Shown: in pieces, positions 4,257 to 18,242 of the stretch
Numbering within the stretch: position 1 is the first letter of the stretch
Layout of the letters: the number at the start of each line of letters is the position of its first letter
IMG/VR virus record: IMGVR_UViG_3300046477_000067
Location: 1-33,197 of that record
Origin: a virus
Reading direction: 5' to 3' (one strand)
Length of the DNA stretch: 33,197 nucleotides
Translations under genes and position numbers: made by a program
Notes under the pieces: model-generated
What the model saw: the letters and a program-made list of their open reading frames with translations, nothing else
The model's database searches: none
What the model was told of the DNA's origin: nothing

Positions 4257-4892
4257 TTATACGACCCCTGCACGTTGATTGCGATACCAGTTAGACGCGA
4301 CGCCCGACGCGCTCGTGAGCAGCGACGTTGCGCCGGCCAGCGCCGGGCTGACTGCTGACGCGGCCGCGCCGTATTGGCCCGCCGCGCGCACGTCGTTGTC
4401 TTCCTGCTGGTTGTAACCCATCGCCGCGCGCGCGGCGTTGGCCGTGATCGTGGCGACGTTCTGATCGGTGACGAACTTCGTCGACGCCTGCACGTTCGTG
4501 GCCGTCCCGGCCGCGTTCACGTCGATGCCGTTCGCCGCCATCGCTGCGCGCTGCGACGCGATGGTCTGCGCGCCTTTCGTCTCGGTGTTGGCGACTGACG
4601 CCGCGCCACTGGTGTAGGCGCTCGCGGCGGCCTGCTCGGCGATCAGCGCGTTCGTGCGCGCGGTTTCGGCTTGCGCGTTGTCGGCCGTGATCGTGTTGTG
4701 CGCGGTGCCGACCGCGCCCATGAACGACATTGCGCCACCGGCCGCGCCGAGCGCGAGCGTGGCGTTGCCGGGCGTGAGCACGTCGGGCATTGCCGCAGCA
4801 GGCGACGAGCCGCCGAAGCCGTATGGTGCGCCGCTGCCCGTAGTGGCCGACGCTGCGCCGCTCAATCCGCTCATCAGTGTGGGCGTGCACAT
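4257..4892 (-). CDS. Internal virion protein, T7 gp14-like
   Basis: 211 residues, very rich in Ala, Gly, Thr and Ser. An N-terminal Gly/Ala segment (about residues 45-65, including LGAAGGAMSFMGAVG) could insert into a membrane. A long low-complexity helical region follows (QAETARTNALIAEQAAASAY). This composition and layout match the T7 gp14 family of core proteins, which form an outer-membrane pore during ejection. Position supports it: the gene lies directly between the gp13-like gene and the transglycosylase, as in T7. The start ATG at 4892 shares bases with the stop of the preceding gene (TAATG). Confidence 0.7.
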   Translation of the reverse strand: MCTPTLMSGLSGAASATTGSGAPYGFGGSSPAAAMPDVLTPGNATLALGAAGGAMSFMGAVGTAHNTITADNAQAETARTNALIAEQAAASAYTSGAASVANTETKGAQTIASQRAAMAANGIDVNAAGTATNVQASTKFVTDQNVATITANAARAAMGYNQQEDNDVRAAGQYGAAASAVSPALAGATSLLTSASGVASNWYRNQRAGVV

Positions 4893-5350
4893 TATCGTTT
4901 CATCCCGAAGCGGTGGAACGGCATGCCGAAAGCCCCATAGGGTTCGGTTTCTGCGTTCACCGTGAAGCCGAGACGCGCGAGCCAGTAGACCGACTTCAGG
5001 CTGCGCGCGTCAACATAGTTCAGCAGAGTGGCGTATTTAGCGTTCATTAAGTGAACGTAGCGCCGACCGAGTTTCGTGAGTTGCTTCGGCGCGCGCTCAA
5101 GCGCGGGCGTCCCGAGCATCCACGGCACGCCGATGTCGGCCGCCGGCGTCACCCCAAAGAGCCCCGCCGGCTCGCCGTCGACTTCGATCGTCCACAGCAT
5201 GGCCGACATATCGGCGCCGGTACGCAGCACGGCGAGCGCGTCGCGGTGCCCAGCCGATGCGTGGATCTCGTCGACGTCAGCCGTGCGCAGCCCGGCAGCG
5301 ATTGTTTCGATGTCACCGGGCCGTACTTCGCGCACGATAAGCTTTGCCAA
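4892..5350 (-). CDS. T7 gp13-like internal virion protein (DUF2833, GNAT-like fold)
   Basis: 152 residues. The start reads MAKLIVREVRPGDIETIAAGL and the end reads WLARLGFTVNAETEPYGAFGMPFHRF, a pattern typical of the gp13/DUF2833 family. These proteins resemble GNAT acetyltransferases but serve in virion assembly. The core LWTIEVDGEPAGLFGV looks like the GNAT beta-strand region. The start is a TTG at 5350 with a G-rich stretch (GGGGG) upstream; no ATG gives a better start. It sits between the nozzle gene and the gp14-like gene in T7 order. One copy of the late-region repeat core TAAGTGAACG lies within the gene at 5048-5057. Confidence 0.75.
   Translation of the reverse strand: MAKLIVREVRPGDIETIAAGLRTADVDEIHASAGHRDALAVLRTGADMSAMLWTIEVDGEPAGLFGVTPAADIGVPWMLGTPALERAPKQLTKLGRRYVHLMNAKYATLLNYVDARSLKSVYWLARLGFTVNAETEPYGAFGMPFHRFGMKR
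5048..5057 (-). repeat. Late-region repeat, partial copy (10-bp core)
   Basis: Plus strand TAAGTGAACG, minus strand CGTTCACTTA. It matches the first ten bases of the 12-mer found exactly at 11190-11201, 16074-16085 and 18231-18242. Here it lies inside a coding region (codons for Val-His-Leu) and is part of an imperfect palindrome, CGTTCA-TTAAG-TGAACG, at 5041-5057. Its relation to the exact copies is uncertain. Confidence 0.4.
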
Positions 5351-5351
5351 A

Positions 5352-7619
5352 TCAACCCCCGATAGATGCTTCGATCGTCATCGACGCCACGATCAGCGGC
5401 AAAGGATCGCTCTGACGAATGCACACCGAGCCGTCTTGCTGCCACGACGGCGTGAGCGTGATCTCGATCTCGCCCGTCACCATCGATGGCGGCGTGCCGT
5501 ACGGTTCGTTCGTGCGCTGCTTGAACTGTGTCAACTTCGAGAAGTTCGGCCCGGCGAAGACGCCCGACGAGTTGTGTACGCGCAGCCAAACCTTGTTGAT
5601 GTTCTTCACGCGACCTTGGCCGTAACCTTCGGTCGCAAACGAAAACGGTAGCGTCTGCAGATCCGCCGTGATCGGGAGCCCGACGACCGCCGTGCTGACC
5701 GCGTGCGACAGCGACACGGCGCCGTTCGTGACGACTTGTTGCGGCGCGACCGCGCCGTCGGCCAGGATGCTCACCGTCTTGCCTTCGAGATGGTGAAGGC
5801 CGACGACCGACGTCATTCCGTTACCGAACACCTGCACGCCGCAGTCGACGAAGAAGCTGTCGGTGAGCTTGTCGACCTGGCGCGTGTGCATGCGCTCGAC
5901 GTAGCGCACCTGACGCCCGTTTACTGTGCGGTTGACGATCGCGTAGAGCACCGATTCGGGCCCTTCGGTCACGACGCACACCGATTCGAATTTGCCGTCT
6001 GTGTCGTGGTGATGCCATGCCGACACCTTGTGCGTCGGGGAATACGTCAGCCCGAGCAGCGTACCGTCAGACGATACGCACCACACGATCGGGTAAGGCG
6101 CCTTCGCGTACGCCATGTCGACGATCATCTTGAAGTCGAACAGGTGCGGCGCCATCAGGCTGATGTCTTGCGTGACATAGCCGCCGGCGTAATAGTTGTA
6201 CGTCATCTCGCCGACGTGACCGCCCATCGCGAACGCATAAAGCAGCGAGTTGCTGACCGTCACCGGCACGACGTTCGACGCGCCGTTATAACCCTGCGGC
6301 TGCACCGACACCGTGCTCGGCGTGATCGCCTGCGTCGCCGATCCGTTCGCCGTGACAGCCCATTCTGAACTCGACGTCAGCAGCACCAGCTCGGACAGCG
6401 GCACGATGTGCCGGATCGTGTTCGACTCGCGCGCGGCAATGCGGTAATTCAGCGCGTCGGTATCGCGTGACGGCAGCGACGCAGAGAGGTTCGACTCGGT
6501 GCCGATGCGCGTCATCCACGTCGTTTGCGGCAAGGTGATCGTGCCCGCGAACACGCGGCGCTGCTGGTGATAGCCGACCGCGCCGGGGTAATTGCTGACG
6601 CCCGAAAACGGGCTCGACAGGTCGGGCGGCGTCGTGCCGGTGTCGGGCGTGATGTTGTTGTCGATGATCGTCAGGTCTTTCGTCTGACCGATGAACGAGA
6701 AACTGCCCTGAAACTTCCGGTAGACGTTGTACCGACCCGCGCCGGTCGCGGCGCCCCATGTGATCGTATTGTAGTAACCCGCGAGCGTGAGATCGTTGAC
6801 GCAACCGGCGACAGTGGCCGCCGGGGATTCTTCGTTCGTGCCGGCCGCGAGCGACGTCACGACGTAGGAATACGCGACAAGGGTCGGCGTGCCAGTCGTG
6901 CCGAGCGTCGCGACTGCGGCGACACCGGGCGGCGCGGGCACGGTCGACACGAAGCTGATCGTTGTCAGCGTCCAGTTCGTCGCGCCGAGCCGGCGCAATT
7001 CCATCGGCGGGTAATTGGGGTGCGTGATCGTGAGCACGTCGGCCGACTGCACGTAATGCAGGTCGAACAGATCCACTTCGGCGTACGGTGTCGAGATCTG
7101 GTACACCCTCGCGACTGAGCCACCCGGGCCGATGATTCGTGTCATGTCGATCGCGACTCCCGCCGGGTCGACGAGTGCGAACGCCGTCGTGCTCGCGCCG
7201 ATGATAATGCCCCACATCGGCGTGCCAGCGGCGTTCGCCACGTACACCCAATCCCCATTCGAATAGCCGTGCGGCACGGGCGTCGTGACGAGAAACGGGG
7301 CGATCGTTGCGACTTGACCGGCTTCAAGCAGCGTCGCGCCGTTCGTGTGAAAACGGATATAACCGACGCCGAATTCGAGCACCATCGTTTGCGTCGTGCT
7401 GTACGAGAACGGGATAAGCCGCGTTTTCAGCACGCTTTCGAACGTCTCAAGCACGAACGCCGTGCCGGCGCGGTTCGTCGCCGGGCCGTGCGGCAGGGTG
7501 ATGAAGTTGCGGCAGGTCGCGAGCCCGGTCTGAAACTGGTCGAGGTCGACGCGGCCGAACAGTTCCGGCGTGATTTCACCGGCGGCGAACGAGCGGGATA
7601 GGTTGCGGACGTTCGGCAT
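5352..7619 (-). CDS. Tail nozzle / tail tubular protein B-like (T7 gp12 counterpart)
   Basis: 755 residues from the ATG at 7619. An in-frame ATG six codons earlier (7637) lies inside the upstream gene; the later one is preferred because it forms a TAATG junction with that gene's stop and begins MPNVRNLSRSFAAGEITPELFGRVD. That opening (leader, GEITPELFGR, then LATCRNFITLPHGPATNRAGT) is characteristic of podovirus nozzle or stabilisation proteins that close the tail tube. The rest is beta-rich, with repeated fibronectin-like segments near residues 235-330. Placement between the gp11-like adaptor and the gp13-like protein supports the call. Confidence 0.85.
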   Translation of the reverse strand: MPNVRNLSRSFAAGEITPELFGRVDLDQFQTGLATCRNFITLPHGPATNRAGTAFVLETFESVLKTRLIPFSYSTTQTMVLEFGVGYIRFHTNGATLLEAGQVATIAPFLVTTPVPHGYSNGDWVYVANAAGTPMWGIIIGASTTAFALVDPAGVAIDMTRIIGPGGSVARVYQISTPYAEVDLFDLHYVQSADVLTITHPNYPPMELRRLGATNWTLTTISFVSTVPAPPGVAAVATLGTTGTPTLVAYSYVVTSLAAGTNEESPAATVAGCVNDLTLAGYYNTITWGAATGAGRYNVYRKFQGSFSFIGQTKDLTIIDNNITPDTGTTPPDLSSPFSGVSNYPGAVGYHQQRRVFAGTITLPQTTWMTRIGTESNLSASLPSRDTDALNYRIAARESNTIRHIVPLSELVLLTSSSEWAVTANGSATQAITPSTVSVQPQGYNGASNVVPVTVSNSLLYAFAMGGHVGEMTYNYYAGGYVTQDISLMAPHLFDFKMIVDMAYAKAPYPIVWCVSSDGTLLGLTYSPTHKVSAWHHHDTDGKFESVCVVTEGPESVLYAIVNRTVNGRQVRYVERMHTRQVDKLTDSFFVDCGVQVFGNGMTSVVGLHHLEGKTVSILADGAVAPQQVVTNGAVSLSHAVSTAVVGLPITADLQTLPFSFATEGYGQGRVKNINKVWLRVHNSSGVFAGPNFSKLTQFKQRTNEPYGTPPSMVTGEIEITLTPSWQQDGSVCIRQSDPLPLIVASMTIEASIGG

Positions 7620-8284
7620 TATCGGTTCGTGATCCACGAGGCGTTGCGTTGTGACTGCGCGTGCGAGCGTCGGCGGTTGTTCGCGTCGCTGGCCTTGGCC
7701 TGCGCCAGGCTGGTCAGGTAAGCCGTCATCGCCGATTTCGCCATCGCGGCGCCGGTATCACCCTTGATCACCGGGCCGGCGAGATACGCGGCGAGTAGCC
7801 ACGAAACCGTGTCGACAACCTGCGCTGGGAACTTCGTGGTGTCGGTGATACCCGCGACGTAGCGCACCTGCGCGTTTTCGAGGTTCGTGTAAATCACCGA
7901 GATGCCGCTGGAATTGACTTCCATCTCGTACGGCACCGGCTCATTCGGGAACGCCGATCCTTGCCAGTTGCAGCCGCGCTCGTCAGTCGGGTAGAGCGTC
8001 AGCGCGACCGGGTTGACGAGATCGATGATGTTGCGGCAGTTGTTCGGCGCCATGTACACGTACAGGAAGCCGGGCGGCGGGGTGTCGGTGAGTAGCGCGA
8101 GCGTCGCGCGCTGCGTCGCGAATCCCCATTCGTGCGCTTCGAGCACGATGTCTCGCGCGATCGGATAGAAGCGTTGGCAGTGTTCGGCCTGCGCGCTGCC
8201 TTCCGGCGGGTTGATGCTCGACACCGTGGCGTCGTCGCCGAGATGCCCGAGCGCTAGATTGCAGATGTCAATTTCCGATGCCAA
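7619..8284 (-). CDS. Tail adaptor / tail tubular protein A-like (T7 gp11 counterpart)
   Basis: 221 residues from a TTG at 8284. The sequence begins LASEIDICNLALGHLGDDATVSSI, the typical opening of gp11-type adaptors that ring the portal. The TTG is chosen because AGGAG lies seven bases upstream and the adaptor homology begins exactly there. A longer reading from 8332 would add sixteen residues that run back through the terminator hairpin at 8302-8329 and look non-coding. The Arg/Gln/Ser-rich C-terminus (NNRRRSHAQSQRNAS) is probably a flexible tail. The stop overlaps the nozzle gene start. Confidence 0.85.
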   Translation of the reverse strand: MASEIDICNLALGHLGDDATVSSINPPEGSAQAEHCQRFYPIARDIVLEAHEWGFATQRATLALLTDTPPPGFLYVYMAPNNCRNIIDLVNPVALTLYPTDERGCNWQGSAFPNEPVPYEMEVNSSGISVIYTNLENAQVRYVAGITDTTKFPAQVVDTVSWLLAAYLAGPVIKGDTGAAMAKSAMTAYLTSLAQAKASDANNRRRSHAQSQRNASWITNR

Positions 8285-8301
8285 GGCCCTTCTCCTAAAA
8301 C

Positions 8302-8329
8302 AAAACGGGAACCCGCGGGCTCCCGTTTT
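8302..8329 (-). terminator. Hairpin with T tract, likely intrinsic terminator or mRNA-processing stem
   Basis: AAAACGGGA at 8302-8310 pairs with TCCCGTTTT at 8321-8329 around a self-complementary CCCGCGGG core. On the minus strand the stem is followed by TTTTGTTTTAGG, a T-rich exit. It separates the head genes from the tail genes and ends just before the adaptor ribosome-binding site. It may attenuate rather than fully stop transcription, because no obvious promoter follows it. Confidence 0.7.
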
Positions 8330-8351
8330 CACTCACCTATGCGCGAGCCGC

Positions 8352-8582
8352 TTATGCCAGATCGTGCGCAGGATTGGGCGGCATCGCGCCGATCGGGTTG
8401 TTGCCGGTCGTGCCCGTCACTTCACCTTTCTTCGCGCCGCGCTTCGTCGGTGCGCCTTTGCCGTCGAGACGCTCCATCCACGTTTCCGAGAACAGGCTTT
8501 CGCTTGCGATCTCGAACTCGTCGCCCGGCTCGCGAAAGTGGCCGTACACGCCCTTCTCGATCGCGATAACTTTGATGCCCAT
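8352..8582 (-). CDS. Small head-associated hypothetical protein
   Basis: 76 residues. The N-terminal half (MGIKVIAIEKGVYGHFREPGDEFEI) looks like a small beta-barrel. The C-terminal half is basic and Gly/Pro-rich (GAPTKRGAKKGEVTGT). Small proteins with this opening are common beside capsid genes in podoviruses and siphoviruses; their role is not known to me. It stands alone between two hairpins, after the cement protein gene. A GAGGG-TTAGGA purine stretch precedes the ATG at 8582. Confidence 0.7.
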   Translation of the reverse strand: MGIKVIAIEKGVYGHFREPGDEFEIASESLFSETWMERLDGKGAPTKRGAKKGEVTGTTGNNPIGAMPPNPAHDLA

Positions 8583-8599
8583 GTCCTAACCCTCGAAAA

Positions 8600-8617
8600 G
8601 CCCGGCCTAAGCCGGGC
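8600..8617 (-). terminator. GC-rich hairpin after the cement gene
   Basis: GCCCGGC at 8600-8606 pairs with GCCGGGC at 8611-8617 around a four-base loop. On the minus strand a short CTTTTC follows, so it is at best a weak terminator. It lies between the cement protein stop and the next small gene, where it could set the high ratio of capsid and cement transcripts to downstream genes. Confidence 0.5.
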
Positions 8618-8624
8618 GCCCCTA

Positions 8625-9080
8625 TTACGAGACGGTGTAACCCTTCGCGTAATCGGTCGTACCGTTGAGCGTCTGCAGGTCTTCGACCAGGCCGGCGGTG
8701 ATCGAGCCGGCAGTCGCGGACGAGCCGCCGACCGTGTAGATCAGACCGACGTAGCGGCGATACTTGCCGTACGGGAGATCGATCTGAATCAGTCGCGCCT
8801 TAGCCAGCAACGCGGCGAGCAGGATCGCGCCGGTCGTGTAGTGCGTGATCACGTTGGTCGTGAGCGCGGCGTCGTCGGCCGACACCAGCGCGATCGTCAG
8901 CGACGTCAACGTGGCGAAGTTGACCGAGCCGACTTGCGCGAACAGGCTGATGTCTTGCCCGTCGCCAATGCCCGACTTGGTGTTGTAACCGCCCGGCAGG
9001 GTGTCGATCACGTTCGTCGAGTTCGCCGTGGCCGTAATGGCCTGCGAATCCGAGAACAAGGATTGTTGATCCATGATCAT
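8625..9080 (-). CDS. Capsid cement protein, Bbp16-like
   Basis: 151 residues: MIMDQQSLFSDSQAITATANSTNVIDTLPGG, then a beta-rich body with IQIDLPYGKYRRYVGLIYTVGG and a terminal EDLQTLNGTTDYAKGYTVS. This is the pattern of the Bbp16 family, the jelly-roll cement protein that trimerises on the outside of the BPP-1 capsid. It follows the major capsid gene, as in BPP-1. The ATG at 9080 has AAAGGAG nine bases upstream, a strong site suited to a high-copy structural protein. An in-frame ATG two codons later is possible. Confidence 0.85.
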   Translation of the reverse strand: MIMDQQSLFSDSQAITATANSTNVIDTLPGGYNTKSGIGDGQDISLFAQVGSVNFATLTSLTIALVSADDAALTTNVITHYTTGAILLAALLAKARLIQIDLPYGKYRRYVGLIYTVGGSSATAGSITAGLVEDLQTLNGTTDYAKGYTVS

Positions 9081-9138
9081 GATGTGCTACTCCTTTGTTC
9101 GTTTGCAGAGCGGACCGAAGCCCGCGCAGTGGATTCGC

Positions 9139-10161
9139 TTAGACGACTCGCGTTTCGGTCGACAGCAGCGCGTCGACGATGCGGATCGGGATGCCGAGGA
9201 ACGACGTCGTGATCTGGCCTTGCGCTTCCGACACGCTCAGTGCGTTCTGCGACTTGTTCAGCGCCTGGACGCGCAGCATTTCGCCGACCGTGCGGTTGAC
9301 GTAGAACACCGGGCGACCCATGCCCTGACGCGGAATACGCGCGGTCATGCGGATCATCGTCTGGATCAGGTCGACCGGCGACGTGCCGTTGACGCCCGGG
9401 AACGTCGGCGCCGTTGCGATCGTCGTCAGATCCGACACGTTGATGTTCGCTGCGCGCACGACATAGCGCCAATCCTTCAGCGCGATACCGCACTTCCACT
9501 GCCAGCGGTCAGCCACGGCGCGGAAACGGTTGTTGCTCGCGTCGAACGCGTCGATCGTGCCCAAGTCTTCGTGGAACACGCCGGCTTTCGAGCCCTTCGG
9601 GAAAATGCCGGTGACGGTCTGATCGCCCCAATTCATCAGCCAGATCGAGCAGTTGTTAGAACCGGTGCCGCCGCAATCGATGATGTTGTTCGCGTTGCCT
9701 GCGCCCGAGATCGTGCCGTAGCGCGTCGCGAGACCGGTGAAGCGTTCCGGGTTGACCGACACGTCGCCGTAGAACAGGGTCGACGCCATCGTTTCGTTCA
9801 TCGCTTCGAGGAACGAGCTGGCTTCGGACAGGCGGAACGCAGCCGTGTTGCCATTCAGGTTCGCGACGTCAACGTCGATTTCATTGCGTGCTTCGAGCAT
9901 GCCCGTTGCTTCGTCAACCTGTGCGCGCGTCGACTTGCTCGGCGGCACGCCACCGTACAGCTTGCGCCACACGACAGTCGGCAGACCCGTGCGCACGGTC
10001 GTGCGGTGACCGGTCGGCAAATTGCCTTCGGCCCACACGGCATCGAGCAGGATCTCGTTCGTCTGGTTCAGCAGTTCGATCACGTCGGCGGTCGCGCCGG
10101 ACGGGTCGAGCGATTTCGCTACGTCGAGCAGCGTCGGATTCTTTGTACCAAGTACGGCCAT
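9139..10161 (-). CDS. Major capsid protein, BPP-1-like (HK97-type fold)
   Basis: 340 residues: MAVLGTKNPTLLDVAKSLDPSGATADVIELLNQ at the start, SKSTRAQVDEATGMLEARNEIDVDVANLNG near residues 75-105, and GMGRPVFYVNRTVGEMLRVQALNKSQN near 285-310. These are hallmarks of the capsid proteins of BPP-1 and related podoviruses. It lies between scaffold and cement genes. AGGGG precedes the ATG at 10161. No protease gene is seen nearby and no cleavage region is obvious at the N-terminus, which suggests assembly on the scaffold without maturation cleavage. Confidence 0.9.
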   Translation of the reverse strand: MAVLGTKNPTLLDVAKSLDPSGATADVIELLNQTNEILLDAVWAEGNLPTGHRTTVRTGLPTVVWRKLYGGVPPSKSTRAQVDEATGMLEARNEIDVDVANLNGNTAAFRLSEASSFLEAMNETMASTLFYGDVSVNPERFTGLATRYGTISGAGNANNIIDCGGTGSNNCSIWLMNWGDQTVTGIFPKGSKAGVFHEDLGTIDAFDASNNRFRAVADRWQWKCGIALKDWRYVVRAANINVSDLTTIATAPTFPGVNGTSPVDLIQTMIRMTARIPRQGMGRPVFYVNRTVGEMLRVQALNKSQNALSVSEAQGQITTSFLGIPIRIVDALLSTETRVV

Positions 10162-10174
10162 GATTTACGCCCCT

Positions 10175-10831
10175 TTATTTCATGTTCGGATAGAGGCGGT
10201 TCTCAAGCGGCGTCTTGGCGCGGTCACTCTGCCCCGCGTCGCCGCTGATAATGCGCCCGTCTTCACTGATTGCCTTGCCGGCCCGGACCATGAACCGAAC
10301 AACTTCGGGATGGTTGCCAAGGCCGCTTTGATTCAGCAGCGCTTTCAACGCAGGAGAGCCGAACTTGTCGAGCGCTTGCTTTGCCACGGCCAGGTTCTCG
10401 GGCAGCTTGTCCCCGCCGATTTCCTTGTCAGAGGTTGTTTCCTCCGCCCACTTGGCCGTCGCCGCTTTCTGCTGCTCGGCAACCTGAGCCGCAAACCCTT
10501 GCGCCTGCTTGGCGCCGAGATCCGCGAGCTTCTGTGCTTCTTCCTGCGTCAAGCCCTTCTCTTTGGCGAACGCCTTCAACTCGTCCAGTGCTTCACCCTT
10601 CAGGTCAACGCCTTCGGGCAACTTGAACTCGTATTCGACGGGCGCAGTTTCGGCGGGCTTCTCGGCCGGCTTGGCTGCTTCGCCTTCGGCGGGCTTCGCC
10701 GTTGCTTCCGTTGCCTGCGTGGCTTCGGTCGCGGGTGTTGCTGCTTGGCTCTGCGATGCGTCGACGGGCGTCGCCGTCGTGCTGGTCGCTTCAGCCGGTG
10801 CCGCTTGGCTTTCAGTGGAGAGGTCAGCCAT
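10175..10831 (-). CDS. Scaffolding protein
   Basis: 218 residues in three parts: an Ala/Thr/Pro-rich acidic leader (residues 1-70), a helical Lys/Glu/Ala/Gln-rich middle likely to form coiled coil (about 75-140), and a C-terminal part, DKFGSPALKALLNQSGLGNHPEVVRFMVRAGK, resembling the capsid-binding end of podovirus scaffolds. It is immediately upstream of the major capsid gene. It overlaps the preceding Bbp19-like gene by eight bases, with its AAAGGA site inside that gene's end. The acidic, low-complexity composition and position are the basis of the call. Confidence 0.82.
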   Translation of the reverse strand: MADLSTESQAAPAEATSTTATPVDASQSQAATPATEATQATEATAKPAEGEAAKPAEKPAETAPVEYEFKLPEGVDLKGEALDELKAFAKEKGLTQEEAQKLADLGAKQAQGFAAQVAEQQKAATAKWAEETTSDKEIGGDKLPENLAVAKQALDKFGSPALKALLNQSGLGNHPEVVRFMVRAGKAISEDGRIISGDAGQSDRAKTPLENRLYPNMK

Positions 10832-11159
10832 TTGGTTTTTCCTTTACCTGCGCTTCGTTCGCCATCTGCGCGTAGAGCAGGGCGCCGCCTTCGATCGAAT
10901 GGATCTGTGCGACCAGCCGTAGCGCAATGCTGCGTTTGCCTTCGTTGAAAATCGACCAGTTCGTGTTGCCGTCGAATGACTGCTGGTACAGCCTTGCGTC
11001 GCCGAGCAGGCGCCACATGAAACGACGGCCACGTTTGCCGCTCATGAGCCAACGCACGTCATCCAACTCGATCGCCATCTCGAAGCGTGATTGCTCGCGG
11101 GATGTCGCGCGCTGCTCGTCTAGCGCGGTCAGATCGGTCGGGTTGAAGTCGTCGCTCAT
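10824..11159 (-). CDS. Bbp19-like phage protein
   Basis: 111 residues: MSDDFNPTDLTALDEQRATSREQSRFEMAIELDDVRWLMSGKRGRRFMWRLLGDARLYQQSFDGN and an end with IHSIEGGALLYAQMANEAQ. This matches the Bbp19 family found beside the scaffold in BPP-1-type phages. The function is unknown; the position suggests a head-assembly role. Start at 11159 overlaps the stop of the 43-residue Cys-rich gene by ATGA. The upstream TTATATT at about 11169-11175 resembles a -10 box, but no convincing -35 box accompanies it. Confidence 0.8.
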   Translation of the reverse strand: MSDDFNPTDLTALDEQRATSREQSRFEMAIELDDVRWLMSGKRGRRFMWRLLGDARLYQQSFDGNTNWSIFNEGKRSIALRLVAQIHSIEGGALLYAQMANEAQVKEKPNG

Positions 11160-11287
11160 CGTGTGCGGAATATAAGGGCGCGGTTTGGCGGTAAGTGAAC
11201 GCTGCCGGCGAAGTGCTTCTCGCTCGGCTCACAGCAGCGCGGCCCGTACATCTTTCGGGCGCACCACCAGCACCGGGCGGGGTTCAT
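11156..11287 (-). CDS. Hidden 43-residue Cys-rich (possible zinc-binding) head-module protein
   Basis: An ATG at 11287 opens a 44-codon frame, MNPARCWWCARKMYGPRCCEPSEK..., ending in FRTR-stop. Both ends use ATGA overlaps: its start shares bases with the capsid staple stop and its stop shares bases with the Bbp19-like start. That double coupling is the main evidence that this short frame is real. The CxxC plus CC arrangement in the first 20 residues could hold a metal ion. It also carries one exact copy of the 12-bp late repeat. No family is recognised. Confidence 0.7.
   Translation of the reverse strand: MNPARCWWCARKMYGPRCCEPSEKHFAGSVHLPPNRALIFRTR
11190..11201 (-). repeat. Late-region 12-bp repeat, copy 1
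   Basis: Exact CGTTCACTTACC on the minus strand, about 30 bases before the Bbp19-like start and inside the small Cys-rich gene. The reading frame here (GTT CAC TTA CCG) differs from the phase used inside the large terminase copy, so the amino acid sequence does not explain the conservation. Confidence 0.6.
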
Positions 11288-11598
11288 CCGTAGATGCGGT
11301 TCGCGAGCGGCTTCGGCTCGCTGTTACCGTTTGCGAGTTCCATGTCGGTGATCTGCAACGACATGCTGTTTTCGGCGCCGTCCTGGTTCTCGTACTGCGA
11401 CACGCTGCACACTTCGACGAGCGCGGTGAGTTGCATGACCGTGCCGACCGGTGGCAGATCGGTGATGCCGAGCTTCGCGAGCGTCTCGTCGTCGAGTTGG
11501 ATCGTGAGCCCGTACGGGTACGCCGGCTGATCGTCGTCATCGCAGCCGAGCATCGTCTCGCCCTTGGCTTCGGCCGCGCTGAGTTTCATCGAGATCAT
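11284..11598 (-). CDS. Capsid staple-like small head protein
   Basis: 104 residues from the ATG at 11598, which overlaps the tail-spike stop (ATGA); an ATG three codons later (11589) gives the family-like opening MKLSAAEAKGETMLG. The middle YPYGLTIQLDDETLAKLGITDLPPVGTVMQLTALVEVCSVSQYE and the ending MSLQITDMEL are typical of small phage proteins called capsid staple proteins, encoded near the major capsid gene. Such proteins are thought to stabilise the capsid. The annotation is by resemblance, and the exact start is open. Confidence 0.75.
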   Translation of the reverse strand: MISMKLSAAEAKGETMLGCDDDDQPAYPYGLTIQLDDETLAKLGITDLPPVGTVMQLTALVEVCSVSQYENQDGAENSMSLQITDMELANGNSEPKPLANRIYG

Positions 11599-13628
11599 GA
11601 CGCCGCCAAGAGTGAAGTGAAGCCCCACGGCGCCGACTGCTCGCCGATCTGGATGTTCAGCCCGAGAGACGGGCCGTAGGTGTTCGCGCCGCTGTGGAAC
11701 AGGCGCAGCGTGCCGTCGCCAATGTCGACCACGAACGAGTCGAAGACCTGCAGGTTTTCCCACGCATACGTGCCTGGCGTTCCGGCTGCGATGCGCCACG
11801 CCCAAGTCTGGCCGCCGTCGAGCGAGATGCCTTGCCCGATGTAGCGCCCGATAGGCGGGTTGCCGGTCTGTGTTTGCGGAACGTAGTCGAACGAGATCAG
11901 GTATTGCTGGCCTTCCTGTCCCGGCGGGACGTAGATCGACGGCTCGCCCGCCGAGTCGTTGCGGAACAAGCCCACGGGCGGCAGCGCGGCGGGGATAACA
12001 CCAGTCTGGTCGACCCAAGTCGCACCGAGGTCGCTCGACGTGAGCATGCCGAATCGCTTCACGCCATCGCCGCCGAGTCCGCAGCACCACATCTCGATGA
12101 CGTTGCTACCCTGTCGGACACGCAGCATCGGATCGAAAACGCCCTGATTACGCCAGAAGTTATTCGAAGCCGGCACGGTCGCGCTGCAGATCAAGCCTTG
12201 CTTGGCCCACGTGTGAAGGTTGCTGCTCGTCGCCCAGCGGATCGTCGTGCCGTTGTTGGATACGTACGCTTGGTATGTCACGCCGGCGATCTGCACGGCG
12301 CCGCCATTGAACGAGTAGTAGCCGTCTGTCGCATCTGCGAGCTGCACCGGGTTCGCCGGGTCAGCGGTCCACGGTCCATCGATGCTAGGCGCAGTCCACA
12401 GCCCGAGATTCAGGATGTTCGAATTTGCCGCGTTCCCGTTCGTCACGTGTGCGGCGGCCGTGTATCCAGACAGCAACATGGCCCATCGACCGTTCACGGC
12501 GTCATAGAACGGCATCGGGTTCGCGATGTCCGTCGCGTCCCATGTGCCGGCCGAACCAAGCGGAATCACCGGCGCGCCGCTACTTGCCGCGCGCTTGGTG
12601 AACGAAGGCCAGTTGTAATTCGCGCCACCGAACGTCGCTACCTTCACCGGGCCGAATGTGGCTGTGCCGCCCGACGGGCCGTTGACGCCCATGTAAATGC
12701 CGCACTTGGTCGCCGTCTGGTTGAACGTAGACACCAACGACGAGATCTGAACGCCGTTAATCCAGACCGTGATATTCGGCCCGATGCAATCAATGCGCAC
12801 AGCGGTTACGGCGTTGTTAACCACCGTCCCATCGGCGATGTACATCTGGTCAAACTGCGTGCCGCCCTGCTTGTTGTAGAGCGTGACGCGGTTGTATCGG
12901 GGATCGACCTGGATTCCCCAGTAATTGTTCGCATCCACGTAACGGAACATCAGAACGGCGATAACGCACAGATTGTTGTCTGGCGAATACGACGACATGG
13001 CGCATGAGGCGGTGAAATCCGACACGCCCGCGTCGAACACGTTGGAGTTCCCGTTCGCCTGAATCGTTGTAACGGCCTTGCCGCTGCCGTTCAGCGTGAA
13101 CGCTCCGGCGGCGTTCGCGGCCCACGTCTTCGTGCCGATGTTCGTCGCACGAGACTCGACCGCCGTGCCATTGGTCCCGACGAAATCGTCTTCGACCAGG
13201 ATCGGCGACTGCAGAGCCGTGGCGCGCACCATCGCGGCGAACGTCTTGCCGCCGTCGAATGAGATCGCCTCGATCACGTCGAAACCCGCAGCCGACAGCG
13301 TGGGCACGGTGCCGCCCGGCCAGGTGAACGATGACGGCCATGTAACCGTGAGCCCGTTCGCGGCGATGAAAATCTGAAACGATTGCGAGTTCGCCGGGTT
13401 GACGAGCGAAAGCGTCACGGCGCCAATCAGGTTCAGCTTGAATCGCGATGCCGTCGACAGGTTCAGCGCGATCGCGCCGGTTGCGAGTACGTTAACCTGC
13501 GCGGCCGTGCCGCCCGAGACGTACGGCCGCAGGCTGGTCGCGGGGAAGTTCACGAGTTGGCCGCCTTGACGCACCGTAACCAGATCGGCGTCAAGCAACG
13601 GGCTCGTCGACATCGTGTATTCGCTCAT
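11595..13628 (-). CDS. Tail spike / receptor-binding protein with glycosidase-like beta-propeller
   Basis: 677 residues in three apparent parts. Residues 1-135 are a virion-anchor and beta region like those of tail fibres (MSTSPLLDADLVTVRQGGQLVNF, TVTWPSSFTWPGGTVPTLSA). Residues about 140-335 look like a concanavalin/LamG-type jelly roll (VEDDFVGTNGTAVESR ... YWGIQVDPRYNRVTLYNK). Residues about 345-677 have repeated blades (WDATDIANPMPFYDAVNGRWAML, GGAVQIAGVTYQAYVSNNG, GVFDPMLRVRQGSNVIEMWCCG) resembling the five-bladed propeller of GH43/GH32 glycosidases. It may bind or cut a surface sugar. The ATG at 13628 overlaps the portal stop. Its place between portal and staple is unusual for a tail gene. 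Confidence 0.72.
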   Translation of the reverse strand: MSEYTMSTSPLLDADLVTVRQGGQLVNFPATSLRPYVSGGTAAQVNVLATGAIALNLSTASRFKLNLIGAVTLSLVNPANSQSFQIFIAANGLTVTWPSSFTWPGGTVPTLSAAGFDVIEAISFDGGKTFAAMVRATALQSPILVEDDFVGTNGTAVESRATNIGTKTWAANAAGAFTLNGSGKAVTTIQANGNSNVFDAGVSDFTASCAMSSYSPDNNLCVIAVLMFRYVDANNYWGIQVDPRYNRVTLYNKQGGTQFDQMYIADGTVVNNAVTAVRIDCIGPNITVWINGVQISSLVSTFNQTATKCGIYMGVNGPSGGTATFGPVKVATFGGANYNWPSFTKRAASSGAPVIPLGSAGTWDATDIANPMPFYDAVNGRWAMLLSGYTAAAHVTNGNAANSNILNLGLWTAPSIDGPWTADPANPVQLADATDGYYSFNGGAVQIAGVTYQAYVSNNGTTIRWATSSNLHTWAKQGLICSATVPASNNFWRNQGVFDPMLRVRQGSNVIEMWCCGLGGDGVKRFGMLTSSDLGATWVDQTGVIPAALPPVGLFRNDSAGEPSIYVPPGQEGQQYLISFDYVPQTQTGNPPIGRYIGQGISLDGGQTWAWRIAAGTPGTYAWENLQVFDSFVVDIGDGTLRLFHSGANTYGPSLGLNIQIGEQSAPWGFTSLLAAS

Positions 13629-15445
13629 TGGGAGTTGTACCCGGTGAGGTTGTTCATGACGTCCGACAGCGCGTTGCTGCCCCCGCCCTGCGTCGGTGCT
13701 TGCGCCGCAGTCTTCGCGGTTTCGGCCGCCTGCTGCATCGCGGCTTGCTGCTGCGCCTGCTGCGCGGCCTTGGCGCGCGCCTGGCGTTGCTGGTCGCGTT
13801 GATCCGGGTCGATGTTCAGGGCCGGGTCGGTGCCGAGCATGTCGGCGTAACCCTCGTACCAGCCGTCGACGTCGAAGTTGTCGAGCACGGTGACGGGCTG
13901 CTGCGCGGTCATCTGCAACTGCACGATGCCGCCCATCGCCATCGTCAACTTGTCGACCGAGTTCGTGCCGATCTGCTTTTGCGCTTGCGCCAGGATCGAG
14001 ACGAACTCGACCTGCAACTGAACGCCGCCGAGTTCCGGCGGGGGCGGCGGGAGCAAGCCGGCTTCGACCAGAATGTCGAACGCGGAGTCGACGAGCGGCT
14101 TGAGCAGTTCGTCGTGCAGGCGCTCGATCACCGGCCCGAGCATGAGCATCTTCTCTTCGTGCAACTCGGCGACTTCGGTCGCCGTCATGTTCGCGTTCGT
14201 GTTGTTCGCGAGCATGAGGAACAGGTCTTCGTAGAACGCGCTACGAATGCGGCCGCGCACGTCTTCGATATCCTGCAGCAGATACTGCAGCGGCAATTGC
14301 ACTTCGAATGCGGTGCGAATGCCGCCGCCTTGCTGCACGCTGTCGACGTAGGAAATCCCGCCCGGCAGCGTATCCATGTCGTGATTCTTCAGCGACGTCG
14401 GCACCTGGATCGGCGGCTTCGTCATGAAATCGATAGCCTGACCCTTGCGCAGTTGCTCGTGCTGCAGCTGGCGGATGTCGCCGAGCGCGTCCATCGCGGG
14501 GCTGTTGCCGTAGATGTCACCGCCGAATGTCGACCAGCGCGGCGCGACAACGCGGAACTTCTTAAAGCCCGAGATCGAGAGCGTCGCCTGCGATCCGCCG
14601 GTCGTGCCCATGTTCGAGGTTTGCTGCGAGTCGGACGAACCGCCGATTTCGAGGTATGTCGACGTCCACGCCATGTTGCGCGCGTCAGACTTGCTCGGGT
14701 CGCGGTCTTCGTTCGGCTCGATCGCGTGGATCACCGTGCGCCAGACGTCAAGGTTGCCCATGTCGTACATGCGCCGCGTGTCTTCGCTGCAGTTCTCGTA
14801 TCCGAATTCCTTGACGAGCTGCGCGACCGTCTTCTGGAACTCGCGATACAGCGTGTCGACTTCGCCGCGGTGATTCGTCGAGATCGCGTATTCCCCGGCG
14901 GTCAGCGGATACATGCGGATTACATCGTTGTAATCGTGCATGATGATCGACACGGCCGTGCCGAACGCGCCGATTTCCTCGTACATCTGGTGCAGCGACC
15001 GGTACACGTTCGACCGGTTGAACACGTCGAGAATGAGTTTCGTGACGTCGGCGCACCAGACCTTAACCGCCTGCTTTTTGTTCAGATCCGCGTACGGAGT
15101 CTTGAGCACGATCCACGGCCGAGCCGGCGACGTCGCCCCGGCCATCAGCCCGGCGCCGAGCACGCGCAGCGATTTCGTGGCAGTGCTGTCGAAAATGTTC
15201 TGATTGCGCCGGTTGCCGCGATTGCGGTCTTCGACGAAGAAGCGCCCGGCGCGGGGCAGCAACACGTTGGAAATGTCTTTCCACTCGGCGATCCACGACG
15301 AACGCTCATTCTTCAGCGCGTACCAGCGTTGGAGAATGAGCGTCTTACGCGTCACGATCGGCTTGGCGTTGCCGCCATTCTGGCTCGGCTTCGCGGCTGT
15401 CGTGTCCGGCGCGGCGGTCTGGTCGTCCGCGAGAAGCGTCGCCAT
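13625..15445 (-). CDS. Portal (head-tail connector) protein, podovirus type
   Basis: 606 residues from the ATG at 15445 (MATLLADDQTAAPDTTAAKP); an upstream in-frame extension to 15589 lies inside the previous gene and is rejected. Key stretches are WKDISNVLLPRAGRF, STATKSLRVLGAGLMAGATSPARPWIVL, YEEIGAFGTAVSIIMHDYNDVIRMYPL, GDIYGNSPAMDALGDIRQLQHEQLRKGQAIDFMTKPPI and ANMTATEVAELHEEKMLMLGPVIERL. These belong to the head-tail connector family of T7- and BPP-1-like podoviruses. The C-terminal Gln/Ala-rich tail (QQRQARAKAAQQAQQQAAM) is probably the barrel. Its start overlaps the stop of the small Cys-containing gene (TAATG). Confidence 0.93.
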   Translation of the reverse strand: MATLLADDQTAAPDTTAAKPSQNGGNAKPIVTRKTLILQRWYALKNERSSWIAEWKDISNVLLPRAGRFFVEDRNRGNRRNQNIFDSTATKSLRVLGAGLMAGATSPARPWIVLKTPYADLNKKQAVKVWCADVTKLILDVFNRSNVYRSLHQMYEEIGAFGTAVSIIMHDYNDVIRMYPLTAGEYAISTNHRGEVDTLYREFQKTVAQLVKEFGYENCSEDTRRMYDMGNLDVWRTVIHAIEPNEDRDPSKSDARNMAWTSTYLEIGGSSDSQQTSNMGTTGGSQATLSISGFKKFRVVAPRWSTFGGDIYGNSPAMDALGDIRQLQHEQLRKGQAIDFMTKPPIQVPTSLKNHDMDTLPGGISYVDSVQQGGGIRTAFEVQLPLQYLLQDIEDVRGRIRSAFYEDLFLMLANNTNANMTATEVAELHEEKMLMLGPVIERLHDELLKPLVDSAFDILVEAGLLPPPPPELGGVQLQVEFVSILAQAQKQIGTNSVDKLTMAMGGIVQLQMTAQQPVTVLDNFDVDGWYEGYADMLGTDPALNIDPDQRDQQRQARAKAAQQAQQQAAMQQAAETAKTAAQAPTQGGGSNALSDVMNNLTGYNSQ

Positions 15446-15660
15446 TACGAAAGACCGCCGAATCGGACGGTGGTTACGTGCGGATTGGCGGGGCCGAGAT
15501 CCTGCACGCGGACATAGCGCCCGTCGACGACTTTGACGTTGCGCATCGCGCAGGGGCAAGCAGGCTGCCCGTTCTGCGGACCGATGCAATTACACGCGGG
15601 GCATGCGGCGTCAGTGGTGACGGCTTGGCGAAAAATGTTCTCGAAGTCGTACACGGTCAA
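15445..15660 (-). CDS. Small Cys-rich hypothetical protein upstream of portal
   Basis: 71 residues with a Cys cluster (CPACNCIGPQNGQPACPC, residues about 20-37) that could bind zinc, then a short basic beta-rich end (VKVVDGRYVRVQDLGPANPHV). The start is a TTG at 15660 overlapping the stop of the preceding gene (TTGA), and the stop overlaps the portal ATG. The overlaps at both ends argue that it is translated. No family is recognised. Confidence 0.65.
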   Translation of the reverse strand: MTVYDFENIFRQAVTTDAACPACNCIGPQNGQPACPCAMRNVKVVDGRYVRVQDLGPANPHVTTVRFGGLS

Positions 15661-15986
15661 CTCCCGAGCAGCGTGTTGCTACCAAGGCCGGTTGCGCCGC
15701 CCAGGTTGAGCGAGTTGTTGCTGACGCCACCGGCGCCGGTCAGCAGCGTCGACGCCGGGCCGCTGTTCACGCCTGCGGTCGCCGGGCCGTTGGTCGAGTT
15801 CACGCTCGACGTGTCGGCAGCCGTGGCTTTCTGCGCGGTGCCGGCGGCTGTCTTAGCGGCTGCGGCGTCCTGCGCGGCCTTGTCGGCCTGCTGGCCTTGC
15901 GAAATGCTGCTCATGTGCGCAGCGACACCGGTGCCGACAGCGCTGATCGCAGCAACGGCCAGCGGGATAAGCAGGGGTCCGCACAT
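15657..15986 (-). CDS. Hypothetical Ala/Ser/Gly-rich protein with N-terminal hydrophobic segment
   Basis: 109 residues from the ATG at 15986, which has AGGA six bases upstream; the TTG two codons earlier is less likely. It opens MCGPLLIPLAVAAISAVGTGVAAH, a membrane-like or signal-like segment, then becomes low complexity (KAAQDAAAAKTAAGTAQKATAADTSS). Its N-terminus (MCGP...AVAAISAVGTG) resembles the opening of the gp14-like protein, so it may be a second core or membrane-active virion component. This is inference only. Confidence 0.6.
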   Translation of the reverse strand: MCGPLLIPLAVAAISAVGTGVAAHMSSISQGQQADKAAQDAAAAKTAAGTAQKATAADTSSVNSTNGPATAGVNSGPASTLLTGAGGVSNNSLNLGGATGLGSNTLLGS

Positions 15987-15995
15987 GGTCAATCC

Positions 15996-17555
15996 TCACG
16001 AATACGGGTTGTGCTCGGCGCGAGTGCGCGACGGCATCTGATATGCGTAGGGATCGTATTCGGCGTGGCGTTCGGTAAGTGAACGTTGCATGTCGTGCAC
16101 CTTCGGTGTGTCGATCAGCGCGAGCACGTACGCCGATGCCCAATCGGGTGACCGTTTGATGCGTTTCTCGATGTCGTCGCGCGACTCGACTTGCACCGTC
16201 TTACCCTGCACGCGCCACTTCGGCGCGCAGAGATCAGCCGCGAGTCGCTTGTCGGGCGGCAGCGCGATACCGTTGTTCGCGTTCGGATCGAGCGCTTCAC
16301 GCATGCGCCACCACAGTTCTGTGCGCAGGTTGAAGAAGCGCAGCCGCCCCGACTTGTCGAGCCCGCGCGCGGCTTCCGACACGTTGACGCCGTAGACCTG
16401 GATGCGCGACGTGTTCAGGAAGTCGTACGGCGACGAGCCAACGCCGATCACGTCGATGTGGATCGGCGCGTTGTCGCGCAGTGCGGCGAGCGTGTAGCCT
16501 GCCACGGTCGGGCCGTCTGGCGTCGCGCTACCGGGATGCACGATCGCCTTGTCGAACCACATACCGTGACGGCGCGCAATCACCGTGTTGTCGCGGCCGC
16601 CGCGCGCCACGTCGACGCCGAGCGAATCCATTGGCGGCTTGACGGCGGGTTCGATCCAGCGCGCCATTGCTGCGTCAACCCATTCGGTCGGGATCAACTG
16701 CATTGCGTCGTCTTCCATGCCTGCCTCGAATGAGCCGTAGAGCATCTGCGAGCGCAGCGGCTCGGGCAGCGCCTGAAGCTGCGACACGTAGTTCGTGCCG
16801 ACCAGGTGCGGGTTATCGGTCACGCGCGACGGGATGAACGTTCGCGAGCGCGGGATCACGATCTCGCCCTTGTATTCGAACGGCTCGGGGCTCTCGACTT
16901 CCTTGTCGTGCCCGTCGATCGTGACGAACCAGCGCAACTCGCCAGGCACGGCGCGCTTGCCGGGGTATTTGCGATCGAGCCACGGCGCGAAGAACTCGAT
17001 CAGCCAGCGGCCTTCAGCGCTCGACGGCGGGTTGAACGTGAGCAGCGTCTGACACTTCTGGCTCGGGTCGGTCGTCCGGTTCCACGCCATCAGGAAGCGG
17101 ATCTGGAACTCGGGGATCTCGGCGGCTTCGTCGTAGATGATCAGATCGTGCGGGCGGCCGCGATACTTCTGCTCGTCGCCCATGTTCGGCACTGAGCCGA
17201 ATTCGACCTGCACGTCGGGCAAGCGCCAGATCGCATCCTTGCTCGACCAGCCGTCACGGTTGCCGAGCAGTTCGCTCATGCGGTCGACCATGCCGACGTG
17301 CTCGGTGCCGTTCTTTCGAACCACGATGCACTTCTGATGCTGCGTCAGTGCCTTCCCAATGGCGAGGTCGGTCTTACCCCCGCCTGCTGCCCCGCCGAAG
17401 CCAATGACGTCCGCCTGAGACGTGTAGGCGATGGTTTGCGGACCCTTGAGTGGTTCCCATATCGGCGGCGTGAAGTCAGCGAGCAGCCGATCGAACTCGG
17501 CGCGCTCGGCTTCGGTCATGTACGGCCGAAGCGCTTCGTAGTCGGCGGGGCTCAT
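15996..17555 (-). CDS. terL: Terminase large subunit
   Basis: 519 residues from the ATG at 17555 (MSPADYEALRPYMTEAERAEF), chosen because it overlaps the preceding gene's stop (ATGA). The longer frame to 17642 lies inside that gene. The ATPase has Walker A GGAAGGGKTD (about 54-63) and Walker B LIIYDEAAE (about 138-146). The nuclease half shows GVDVARGGRDNTVIA with D315, and DVIGVGSSPYDFL further on. It is the packaging motor that cuts and pumps DNA through the portal. One exact copy of the late 12-bp repeat is inside its 3' end. Confidence 0.95.
   Translation of the reverse strand: MSPADYEALRPYMTEAERAEFDRLLADFTPPIWEPLKGPQTIAYTSQADVIGFGGAAGGGKTDLAIGKALTQHQKCIVVRKNGTEHVGMVDRMSELLGNRDGWSSKDAIWRLPDVQVEFGSVPNMGDEQKYRGRPHDLIIYDEAAEIPEFQIRFLMAWNRTTDPSQKCQTLLTFNPPSSAEGRWLIEFFAPWLDRKYPGKRAVPGELRWFVTIDGHDKEVESPEPFEYKGEIVIPRSRTFIPSRVTDNPHLVGTNYVSQLQALPEPLRSQMLYGSFEAGMEDDAMQLIPTEWVDAAMARWIEPAVKPPMDSLGVDVARGGRDNTVIARRHGMWFDKAIVHPGSATPDGPTVAGYTLAALRDNAPIHIDVIGVGSSPYDFLNTSRIQVYGVNVSEAARGLDKSGRLRFFNLRTELWWRMREALDPNANNGIALPPDKRLAADLCAPKWRVQGKTVQVESRDDIEKRIKRSPDWASAYVLALIDTPKVHDMQRSLTERHAEYDPYAYQMPSRTRAEHNPYS
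16074..16085 (-). repeat. Late-region 12-bp repeat, copy 2
   Basis: Exact CGTTCACTTACC on the minus strand inside the 3' end of the large terminase gene (codons Arg-Ser-Leu-Thr), about 88 bases before the start of the next gene. The position suits a promoter or regulatory site for the genes from 15986 downward, but no -10 box is evident. Confidence 0.55.
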
Positions 17556-17725
17556 TGCACGAGTTGCGGGTCGGTGTTCACGATCGTGCTGCGCATGTAC
17601 GCGCATCGGTACACGACCCAGACGCGCGTATAGGGCCACCACGGCCTTACGGCTTCCCAGTCGTCACGCAGGGGCGTCGACAGGACAACGGCGCCCGCCT
17701 GGCGCCTATAGCAGATCGCTGCCAT
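17552..17725 (-). CDS. Small hypothetical protein between terminase subunits
   Basis: 57 residues, MAAICYRRQAGAVVLSTPLRDDWEAVRPWWPYTRVWVVYRCAYMRS..., rich in Trp, Tyr and Arg. The ATG at 17725 has AGGA five bases upstream, inside the end of the small terminase gene, and the stop overlaps the large terminase start (ATGA). A longer frame to 17800 would overlap the small terminase more and lacks a site. It may be a small packaging accessory; no family is recognised. Confidence 0.65.
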   Translation of the reverse strand: MAAICYRRQAGAVVLSTPLRDDWEAVRPWWPYTRVWVVYRCAYMRSTIVNTDPQLVQ

Positions 17726-18203
17726 CGTCTTCCTGTTCGGCTTTGCGCTTCGCGGCGAGCGCGGCGAGCGCTTGGAGTTTGGCTTGACGTTCTTCGGCAC
17801 TGAGGTTCAGCGAGTCGCCACCGGTCGTCACGTCGATCTTGTCGCCGTACTTCTTCGGCGCCCACTTCGCGAGCAGCTTCAGCCGCGTGTCGACCTGAAG
17901 ACGGCGATGCCCGAGCATGTCGTCGCGGATCTCTTTGTAGCCATCCGCACTTTCCTCGCGGCGCACGCCTTCGACTGGCGTGTCGGCAATGTCGAGCGCC
18001 TCTTCGGCGATGGCGTCATAGCCAAGCTCACGCGCCTGCGCGATGCGTGCGGCAAACTGTGGATGGCTCACGCGCCAGTCGTAGACCGTGCGCCACGCCG
18101 GCATTCCAGCTTCGCGGCAAATAGCGCGCAGAGTTTCGCCGTTTGCGATTCGATCGCAAATCTCGTCAGCGATGGATTGGGAGTAGGAAGAATGTCGGGC
18201 CAT
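17706..18203 (-). CDS. terS: Terminase small subunit
   Basis: 165 residues. An N-terminal helix-turn-helix (SIADEICDRIANGETLRAICREAGMPAWRTVYDWRVSHPQFAARIAQAREL) is followed by a middle helical region (EIRDDMLGHRRLQVDTRLKLLAKWAPKKYGDKIDV) and a Lys/Glu/Ala-rich tail. This is the common small terminase layout that recognises the packaging site and hands DNA to the large subunit. It directly precedes the large subunit with one small gene between. An exact late repeat (18231-18242) lies in the short gap before it. Confidence 0.88.
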   Translation of the reverse strand: MARHSSYSQSIADEICDRIANGETLRAICREAGMPAWRTVYDWRVSHPQFAARIAQARELGYDAIAEEALDIADTPVEGVRREESADGYKEIRDDMLGHRRLQVDTRLKLLAKWAPKKYGDKIDVTTGGDSLNLSAEERQAKLQALAALAAKRKAEQEDDGSDLL

Positions 18204-18230
18204 GCGCGCATGTTGCGCGAGCCCGTTAGG

Positions 18231-18242
18231 GGTAAGTGAACG
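18231..18242 (-). repeat. Late-region 12-bp repeat, copy 3, upstream of terminase
   Basis: Exact CGTTCACTTACC on the minus strand, directly after the stop of the HTH gene and 27 bases before the small terminase ATG. This is the only exact copy in a true intergenic gap. Placement before the packaging operon fits a late control element or packaging-site component; neither is shown. Confidence 0.6.

Follow-up and report, generated by a model that had tools for sequence, protein, structure and literature searches.

What is the function of a short sequence that recurs, always in one orientation, among the virion genes of a virus? This question is raised by a 12-bp repeat in the virus record IMGVR_UViG_3300046477_000067, whose entire contig of 33,197 bases was analysed here (the window) and is probably a fragment of a genome of about 45 kb, as judged from relatives. 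The window encodes small and large terminases, a head-tail adaptor, a Bbp19-like protein, a protease, and major head, tail, and internal virion proteins, in an order that agrees with the layout of Bordetella phage BPP-1. On the basis of sequence comparison, we consider it highly probable that the repeat is an upstream element of late promoters, bound by a helix-turn-helix (HTH) activator of 73 residues that recognizes a lineage-specific triplet and acts with host sigma70 RNA polymerase.

The 12-bp repeat and its proposed promoter layout

A first-pass annotation of this DNA had reported three exact copies of CGTTCACTTACC and a shorter fourth copy. The coordinates of the three exact copies are all correct, and the fourth copy is real, matching at 10 of 12 positions. 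All copies share the strand of the virion genes. These boxes and the -10 hexamers assigned to them are as follows (small terminase, terS; large terminase, terL).

18231-18242, minus strand: box 1, CGTTCACTTACC, exact copy directly after the stop codon of the HTH gene; predicted terS promoter, 15 nucleotides (nt) from its -10, switching in relatives
18210-18215, minus strand: -10 hexamer CAACAT of the terS promoter, at the fixed 15-nt spacing, with the ATG of terS (18203) 6 nt further on; leaderless start predicted
16074-16085, minus strand: box 2, CGTTCACTTACC, exact copy within terL at its 3' end, a site that relatives conserve while its sequence switches; predicted to drive the portal/connector section of the late operon
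16053-16058, minus strand: -10 hexamer TACGAT of the terL-end promoter
11190-11201, minus strand: box 3, CGTTCACTTACC, exact copy; predicted promoter of the Bbp19-like gene
11169-11174, minus strand: -10 hexamer TATATT, ending 9 nt before the ATG of the Bbp19-like gene (11159)
5046-5057, minus strand: box 4, CGTTCACTTAAT, two mismatches, within the gene of an internal virion protein; switches with the other boxes in relatives
5025-5030, minus strand: weak -10-like hexamer CACTCT of box 4

The repeat is far commoner than chance would make it: under a third-order Markov model, 0.0023 copies of CGTTCACTTACC are expected, the lowest such value for any of the 18 12-mers that the window contains three or more times, and no equally rare triple appeared in any of 60 simulated windows. 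The Markov expectation and the simulations rule out a chance repeat in a G+C-rich genome. Coding constraint, already doubted in the first-pass annotation, is ruled out as well, since two exact copies are intergenic and the switch of box 4 in relatives alters the encoded protein (YVHLM to YVTLM in the internal virion protein, codons read by eye). The fourth copy is not a chance match either, because its orthologous site changes with the lineage, reading CGTAACCTTAAT where the other boxes are CGTAACC and AGTACGCTTACC in a CGTACGC phage. An extra apparent copy, CGTTCACGTACA within ATCCCGTTCACGTACAGCATC, was discarded because it belongs to a coding stretch (IPFTYSITQT) that is conserved even where the genome uses other boxes. 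The near-copies on the plus strand, at 18433 and 25721, are unsupported, as the scan described below (own core plus -10) found none on that strand.

When the window copies and those of relatives were aligned, a constant layout emerged: the box, exactly 15 nt, a hexamer NAnnnT, and often an ATG 6-9 nt further on. The hexamers observed (TATATT, TATTCT, TACGAT, CACGAT, CAACAT, and GAAAAT) share A as the second base and T as the sixth. Each of 22 genomes or contigs (756 kb) was then searched with the core of its own box, which yielded 98 late-strand sites (3-6 per genome, at late genes). NAnnnT was present at spacing 15 in 91 of these sites, and at 0-4 sites for each of the other spacings tested, from 9 to 23 nt. 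In the whole 756 kb, core plus hexamer at spacing 15 occurred at 91 late-strand sites versus a single site on the other strand, while the cores of foreign lineages gave one site in 70 genome-by-core tests. At the window sites, no sigma70 -35 hexamer was found 16-18 bp upstream of the -10 (0-1 of 6 positions matching TTGACA). The fixed 15-nt distance to the -10 and the missing -35 hexamer therefore point to a promoter in which a phage-specific box replaces the -35 region. The role of the repeat as an upstream element (at about -38 to -27) of phage late promoters is thus strongly supported, the predicted form being [A/C/G]GTNNNC[A/T]TA[A/C]C, 15 bp, NAnnnT, 6 to 9 nt, and ATG, the last being replaced in some cases by a position inside a late gene. 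Because the distance from the -10 to the first ATG is 6-9 nt in 51 of the 91 sites, the terS and Bbp19-like mRNAs are predicted to be leaderless, and the same is predicted for most mRNAs from the box promoters.

Switching of the box and the recognition helix of a 73-residue protein

The first-pass annotation had named a lack of conservation in related phages among the results that would refute it. The sites are kept at orthologous positions, and their sequence switches coherently by lineage. Where CGTTCAC is missing from a genome, the corresponding sites are occupied by another box (CGTAACC, CGTACGC, GGTGCGC, or AGTTTCC), which is uniform within each genome. For instance, the relatives G005, G007, and G016 carry CGTAACCATACC at three sites (ahead of the Bbp19-like gene, at the terL end, and before the tail-fibre gene), with CGTAACCTTAAT in the internal virion gene and CGTAACCATACG at terS where the contig reaches terS. 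The box is CGTACGCATACC in G010 and mostly [A/C]GCGCACATACC in G006, and more distant phages use GGTGCGC, GGTGCCC, AGTTTCC, GGTGTGC, GGTACCC, CGTGCGT, or GGTATGC, some of the boxes in short contigs being known from one or two sites. The variable triplet (NNN) is identical at the terS, terL-end, and Bbp19-like sites of each genome, except that the terL end of G006 departs by one base and that the terS box of L027/L108, described below, clearly differs from its other boxes. In Vibrio phage 199E37-1 and Serratia phage Otaku, which represent other genome types, the same search recognized no box. On a portal tree of 22 rows, six box labels require 9 changes, versus a mean of 11.1 after shuffling; repeated changes of specificity are therefore probable, with the reservation that the tree has many weak forks.

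The candidate reader of the box is encoded immediately upstream of terS by a gene that is conserved in related phages, and whose relatives sit in Paraburkholderia, Caballeronia, and Burkholderia genomes, presumably as prophages.

18243-18464, minus strand: HTH protein of 73 residues, ortholog of BPP-1 Bbp27 and proposed box activator, with a modelled HTH and a helix that covaries with the box

An AlphaFold2 model of this protein has helices at residues 26-37, 42-49, and 53-60, the last being the modelled recognition helix. An unsupervised calculation over 43 genomes, made with no structural input, gave the mutual information of each protein column with the box triplet, the pattern having first been seen with 37 genomes; the triplets were assigned by the analyst from recurrent sites ahead of the statistics. 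The columns most informative on the triplet were residues 57, 58, 54, and 55 (z 11.3, 9.8, 7.9, and 5.6, scores from which, as from the covariation in general, shared ancestry is not fully removed), and all four lie within the recognition helix. Among protein pairs less than 60% identical outside the helix, the triplet was the same in 28 of 37 pairs that share residues 57 and 58 versus 35 of 758 pairs that differ there. In hard cases, the four helix residues predicted the triplet correctly 29 times out of 35, versus 15 out of 35 for the rest of the protein.

Individual pairings follow this trend. VCYIC or VSYIC occurs with TCA, VQDIC with ACG, and SKGYxSK with TTC; SRMQxWRIC and the distant TRMHAYRIC both occur with AAC; VRDI is found with GCG in proteins less than 50% identical; and AKI accompanies GCC in BPP-1, ctEw122, and L032. 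Furthermore, predictions made out of sample held in both directions: in L166, the GCG box was found first and the helix was then read as VRDI, while in L167 and Jess A the order was the reverse: VRDI was seen in the helix, and GTGCG boxes were then found, at three late-strand sites in L167. The covariation gives strong, though indirect, support to the 73-residue protein, which the first-pass annotation had proposed for binding tests, as the reader of the box. Together with the 15-nt spacing and the orthologous conservation, it also lends strong support to the late promoter or activator site that had been offered as one of several explanations; the antitermination, RNA-processing, and packaging roles offered beside it are not supported.

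Proposed late-gene activation and its alternatives

We propose that the homeodomain-like HTH protein is produced from a leftward early/middle operon, of which it would be the last gene, just before terS. Once bound to the box, the protein would recruit or activate the sigma70 RNA polymerase of the host at promoters in which the -35 hexamer is missing, thereby switching on the genes for terminase, connector, capsid, internal virion proteins, and tail fibre. Of the two parts of the box, the recognition helix (residues 53-60) would read the variable triplet, while for the constant TA[A/C]C half our guess for the reader is a conserved part of the protein (the basic N-terminal arm) or RNA polymerase. 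The asymmetric box and the single small HTH suggest that the protein acts as a monomer. All boxes of a genome would switch together with the helix, so that lineages use different triplets. The window genes on which the boxes bear are listed here.

17706-18203, minus strand: small terminase gene terS, first gene after the HTH gene (phrog_1482, E 1e-40)
15996-17642, minus strand: large terminase gene terL, containing box 2 (phrog_979 and phrog_2)
13625-15589, minus strand: head-tail adaptor (portal) gene, downstream of box 2 (phrog_332, E 1.8e-162)
10824-11159, minus strand: Bbp19-like gene, downstream of box 3 (phrog_528; bbp19 ortholog by position)
4892-5350, minus strand: internal virion protein gene, containing box 4 (phrog_308, E 1.4e-35)

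Elsewhere in the window, a gene for 677 residues (11595-13628, minus strand) lies between the portal and Bbp19-like genes; its product has weak virion-structural or tail-fibre similarity, and among the assembled relatives searched it is present solely in the near-identical G003. A DNA methyltransferase gene (20931-21557, minus strand) has a homolog in G003 but none in the other assembled relatives searched. On the plus strand, positions 26302-27318 encode a low-complexity protein of 338 residues, rich in Ser, Ala, and Asp, whose recurring DAGN/DVGN units are the origin of the repeated TGACGCGGGAAACG.

The 73-residue protein is most likely the late activator. We infer its binding, activation rather than repression, and the start sites from the sequence, and prefer an activator to a repressor or a sigma-like factor because of the promoter anatomy and the gene order. 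Several observations weigh against this reading. The -10 of box 4 is weak (2 of 6 matches), and the HTH model is of high confidence only over residues ~31-60. With regard to the code, AK at residues 57 and 58 is paired with both GCC and GTG, and RD is paired with GCG, yet with GTG in L144. Finally, the boxes of L027/L108 (sites 2979, 4963, and 8642) are discordant, with ACA in the terS box (CGTACACATACG) and AAC in the others (CGTAACCATACC), a mosaic in which the discordant terS box looks like a recombination breakpoint.

Instead of an activator, the protein could be an alternative sigma or sigma-like factor that serves as sigma region 4 inside the holoenzyme, which we regard as unlikely. The box at -38 to -27 does take the place of a -35 element, and two orthologs show weak Pfam Sigma70_r4 matches (13.4-15.5 bits, E 0.012 and 0.057, cut-off 24.1), the window protein having none among the matches listed. 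However, the protein has only 73 residues and no sigma region 2 match, and the -10 resembles the host sigma70 element. Its best matches are to resolvase/Hin-type HTH domains: for Pfam HTH_7 (resolvase HTH), the window protein scores 22.3 bits versus a cut-off of 23.8 and two orthologs score 29.4 and 27.1, and a search of small folds placed the Hin DNA-binding domain close (template modelling score 0.74 by target length), with no match reaching E 0.001. The Hin domain shares the three-helix HTH fold and the HTH_7 similarity, whereas the 73-residue protein is stand-alone, with no recombinase catalytic domain and with a conserved basic N-terminal arm (GLRVGxDHQRAKL). We took two other labels of this protein, endonuclease in phrog and MRP-L20 in Pfam, to reflect generic HTH similarity. 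The RefSeq label 'endonuclease' for Bbp27 is probably wrong.

That the boxes are operators or stoperators, at which the protein acts as a repressor blocking late-gene initiation or elongation in the prophage, appears very improbable. A known case is that of the cluster A mycobacteriophages, whose stoperators are asymmetric 13-bp sites in one orientation with transcription, lineage-specific and read by a monomer, as many as 30 per genome being bound by a two-domain repressor (183 residues in L5) (PMC6550527, PMC9283540). Our boxes are likewise asymmetric, oriented with transcription, lineage-specific, and matched to the proposed binding protein. Nevertheless, they differ from the 20-30 genome-wide sites, present at the early promoter too, that characterize cluster A: they number 3-6, lie at late genes, and are built into promoters, nearly all of them with a -10 at one fixed spacing and no -35, which a repressor site would not need. 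In addition, the HTH gene ends a leftward operon containing replication genes, and BPP-1 has a separate cI.

We likewise give little credence to a real box that is read by another phage protein, with the HTH specificity tracking it through linkage. The HTH gene is indeed linked to the terminase genes, so that neighbours share a history, but the four columns ranked highest all belong to a single helix and are far better predictors of the box than the remainder of this protein, and the pattern recurs in proteins less than 50% identical. An RNA-level signal in late transcripts (for antitermination, processing, or translation) would fit the finding of every copy on the late-gene coding strand, but it leaves the rigid -10 spacing and the covariation with a DNA-recognition helix unexplained and is extremely unlikely.

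The predicted tail-fibre promoter, BPP-1, and related known systems

In full-length relatives, the predicted late promoters include a fifth site, upstream of the tail-fibre gene.

G004:36405, G008:42366, G005:24762, and G002:15766 (coordinates with the virion genes on the plus strand): tail-fibre promoter, predicted start inside a hairpin

The -10 of this promoter abuts an RNA hairpin whose right arm contains the Shine-Dalgarno sequence and the start codon. The hairpin energies are -20.7 and -21.4 kcal/mol (z ~-5.2 and -5.5), and those of a transcript that starts ~7 nt after the -10, without the left arm, are -3.0 and -2.5 kcal/mol. Since the left arm would be absent from promoter-derived RNA, predicted folding suggests that the hairpin would close the tail-fibre start in read-through RNA while promoter-derived RNA stays translatable. 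T4 gene e behaves in this manner, its read-through RNA being shut and its promoter-derived RNA open.

BPP-1 (L086, NC_005357.1), the phage in which diversity-generating retroelements (DGRs) were discovered, has four exact GGTGCCCGTGCC boxes, all on the late strand and with the same 15-nt spacing. One of them (L086 6174-6185) precedes bbp9, with its -10 within a terminator-like hairpin, and lies upstream of the tail-fibre gene leading into the mtd-avd-TR-brt DGR cassette. For the small terminase gene bbp26, the annotation places the start ahead of a predicted promoter box (L086 26283-26318), and the start predicted here is the ATG directly after the -10 hexamer AAAACT. A further phage with BPP-1-like podovirus genes, Limnohabitans phage DC33 (L088, PQ492659.1), is placed in Inoviridae in the GenBank taxonomy. 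The experimental DGR donor plasmids of one study use the Bvg-regulated Pfha promoter (PMC3240598).

Two known systems resemble the proposed one. At T4 middle promoters, MotA and AsiA direct host sigma70 RNA polymerase to a MotA box centred at -30, which replaces the -35 (PMC6024815). The likeness lies in the box of a phage activator, here predicted, in place of the -35. In the present case, however, no MotA or AsiA homolog was identified, the reader is a resolvase-type HTH protein, the genes are late rather than middle, and the box varies between lineages; MotA was not among the matches listed in searches of PDB sequences and folds, which found resolvase, transposase, and other HTH proteins. 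The late promoters of Mu are under one small activator, C, and have non-consensus -10 and -35 elements; dimeric C acts from a site that overlaps the -35 or lies upstream of it, and the promoters vary in architecture (PMC4461284). A late promoter set under one small phage activator is also what we propose, but with one asymmetric box at an invariant 15-bp spacing, consistent with a monomer. The boxes would thus work like MotA or C promoters, and by the tests run the 73-residue protein appears to fall outside the MotA family. Cluster K mycobacteriophages have start-associated sequences, which are short repeats at gene starts, mostly in one orientation; in the part of that source covered here, no cognate HTH protein or -10 spacing rule is seen for them (PMC3203893). 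No prior description of the activator family, the boxes, the BPP-1 late promoters, Bbp27, or leaderless phage late genes was found in the open-access library searched.

For a sizeable set of BPP-1-like podoviruses, we lean somewhat towards a broader picture in which a single-HTH late activator has an evolvable triplet code, the helix and 4-5 dispersed boxes being repeatedly switched together; specificities would be insulated among co-resident prophages, late mRNAs would be leaderless, and the tail-fibre start would lie inside a hairpin, restricting translation to transcripts that come from the activated promoter. The late control of BPP-1 now has a candidate activator, Bbp27, and four named candidate promoters, including one ahead of the tail-fibre gene, which in turn leads into mtd-avd-TR-brt. 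About a dozen DNA specificities of a 73-residue protein form a natural data set and a compact system for a protein-DNA recognition code, which may be useful for orthogonal promoters and for learning how a phage changes a regulator and its dispersed sites together. Overall, these results strongly suggest that each virus lineage would have its private version of the late-gene switch.

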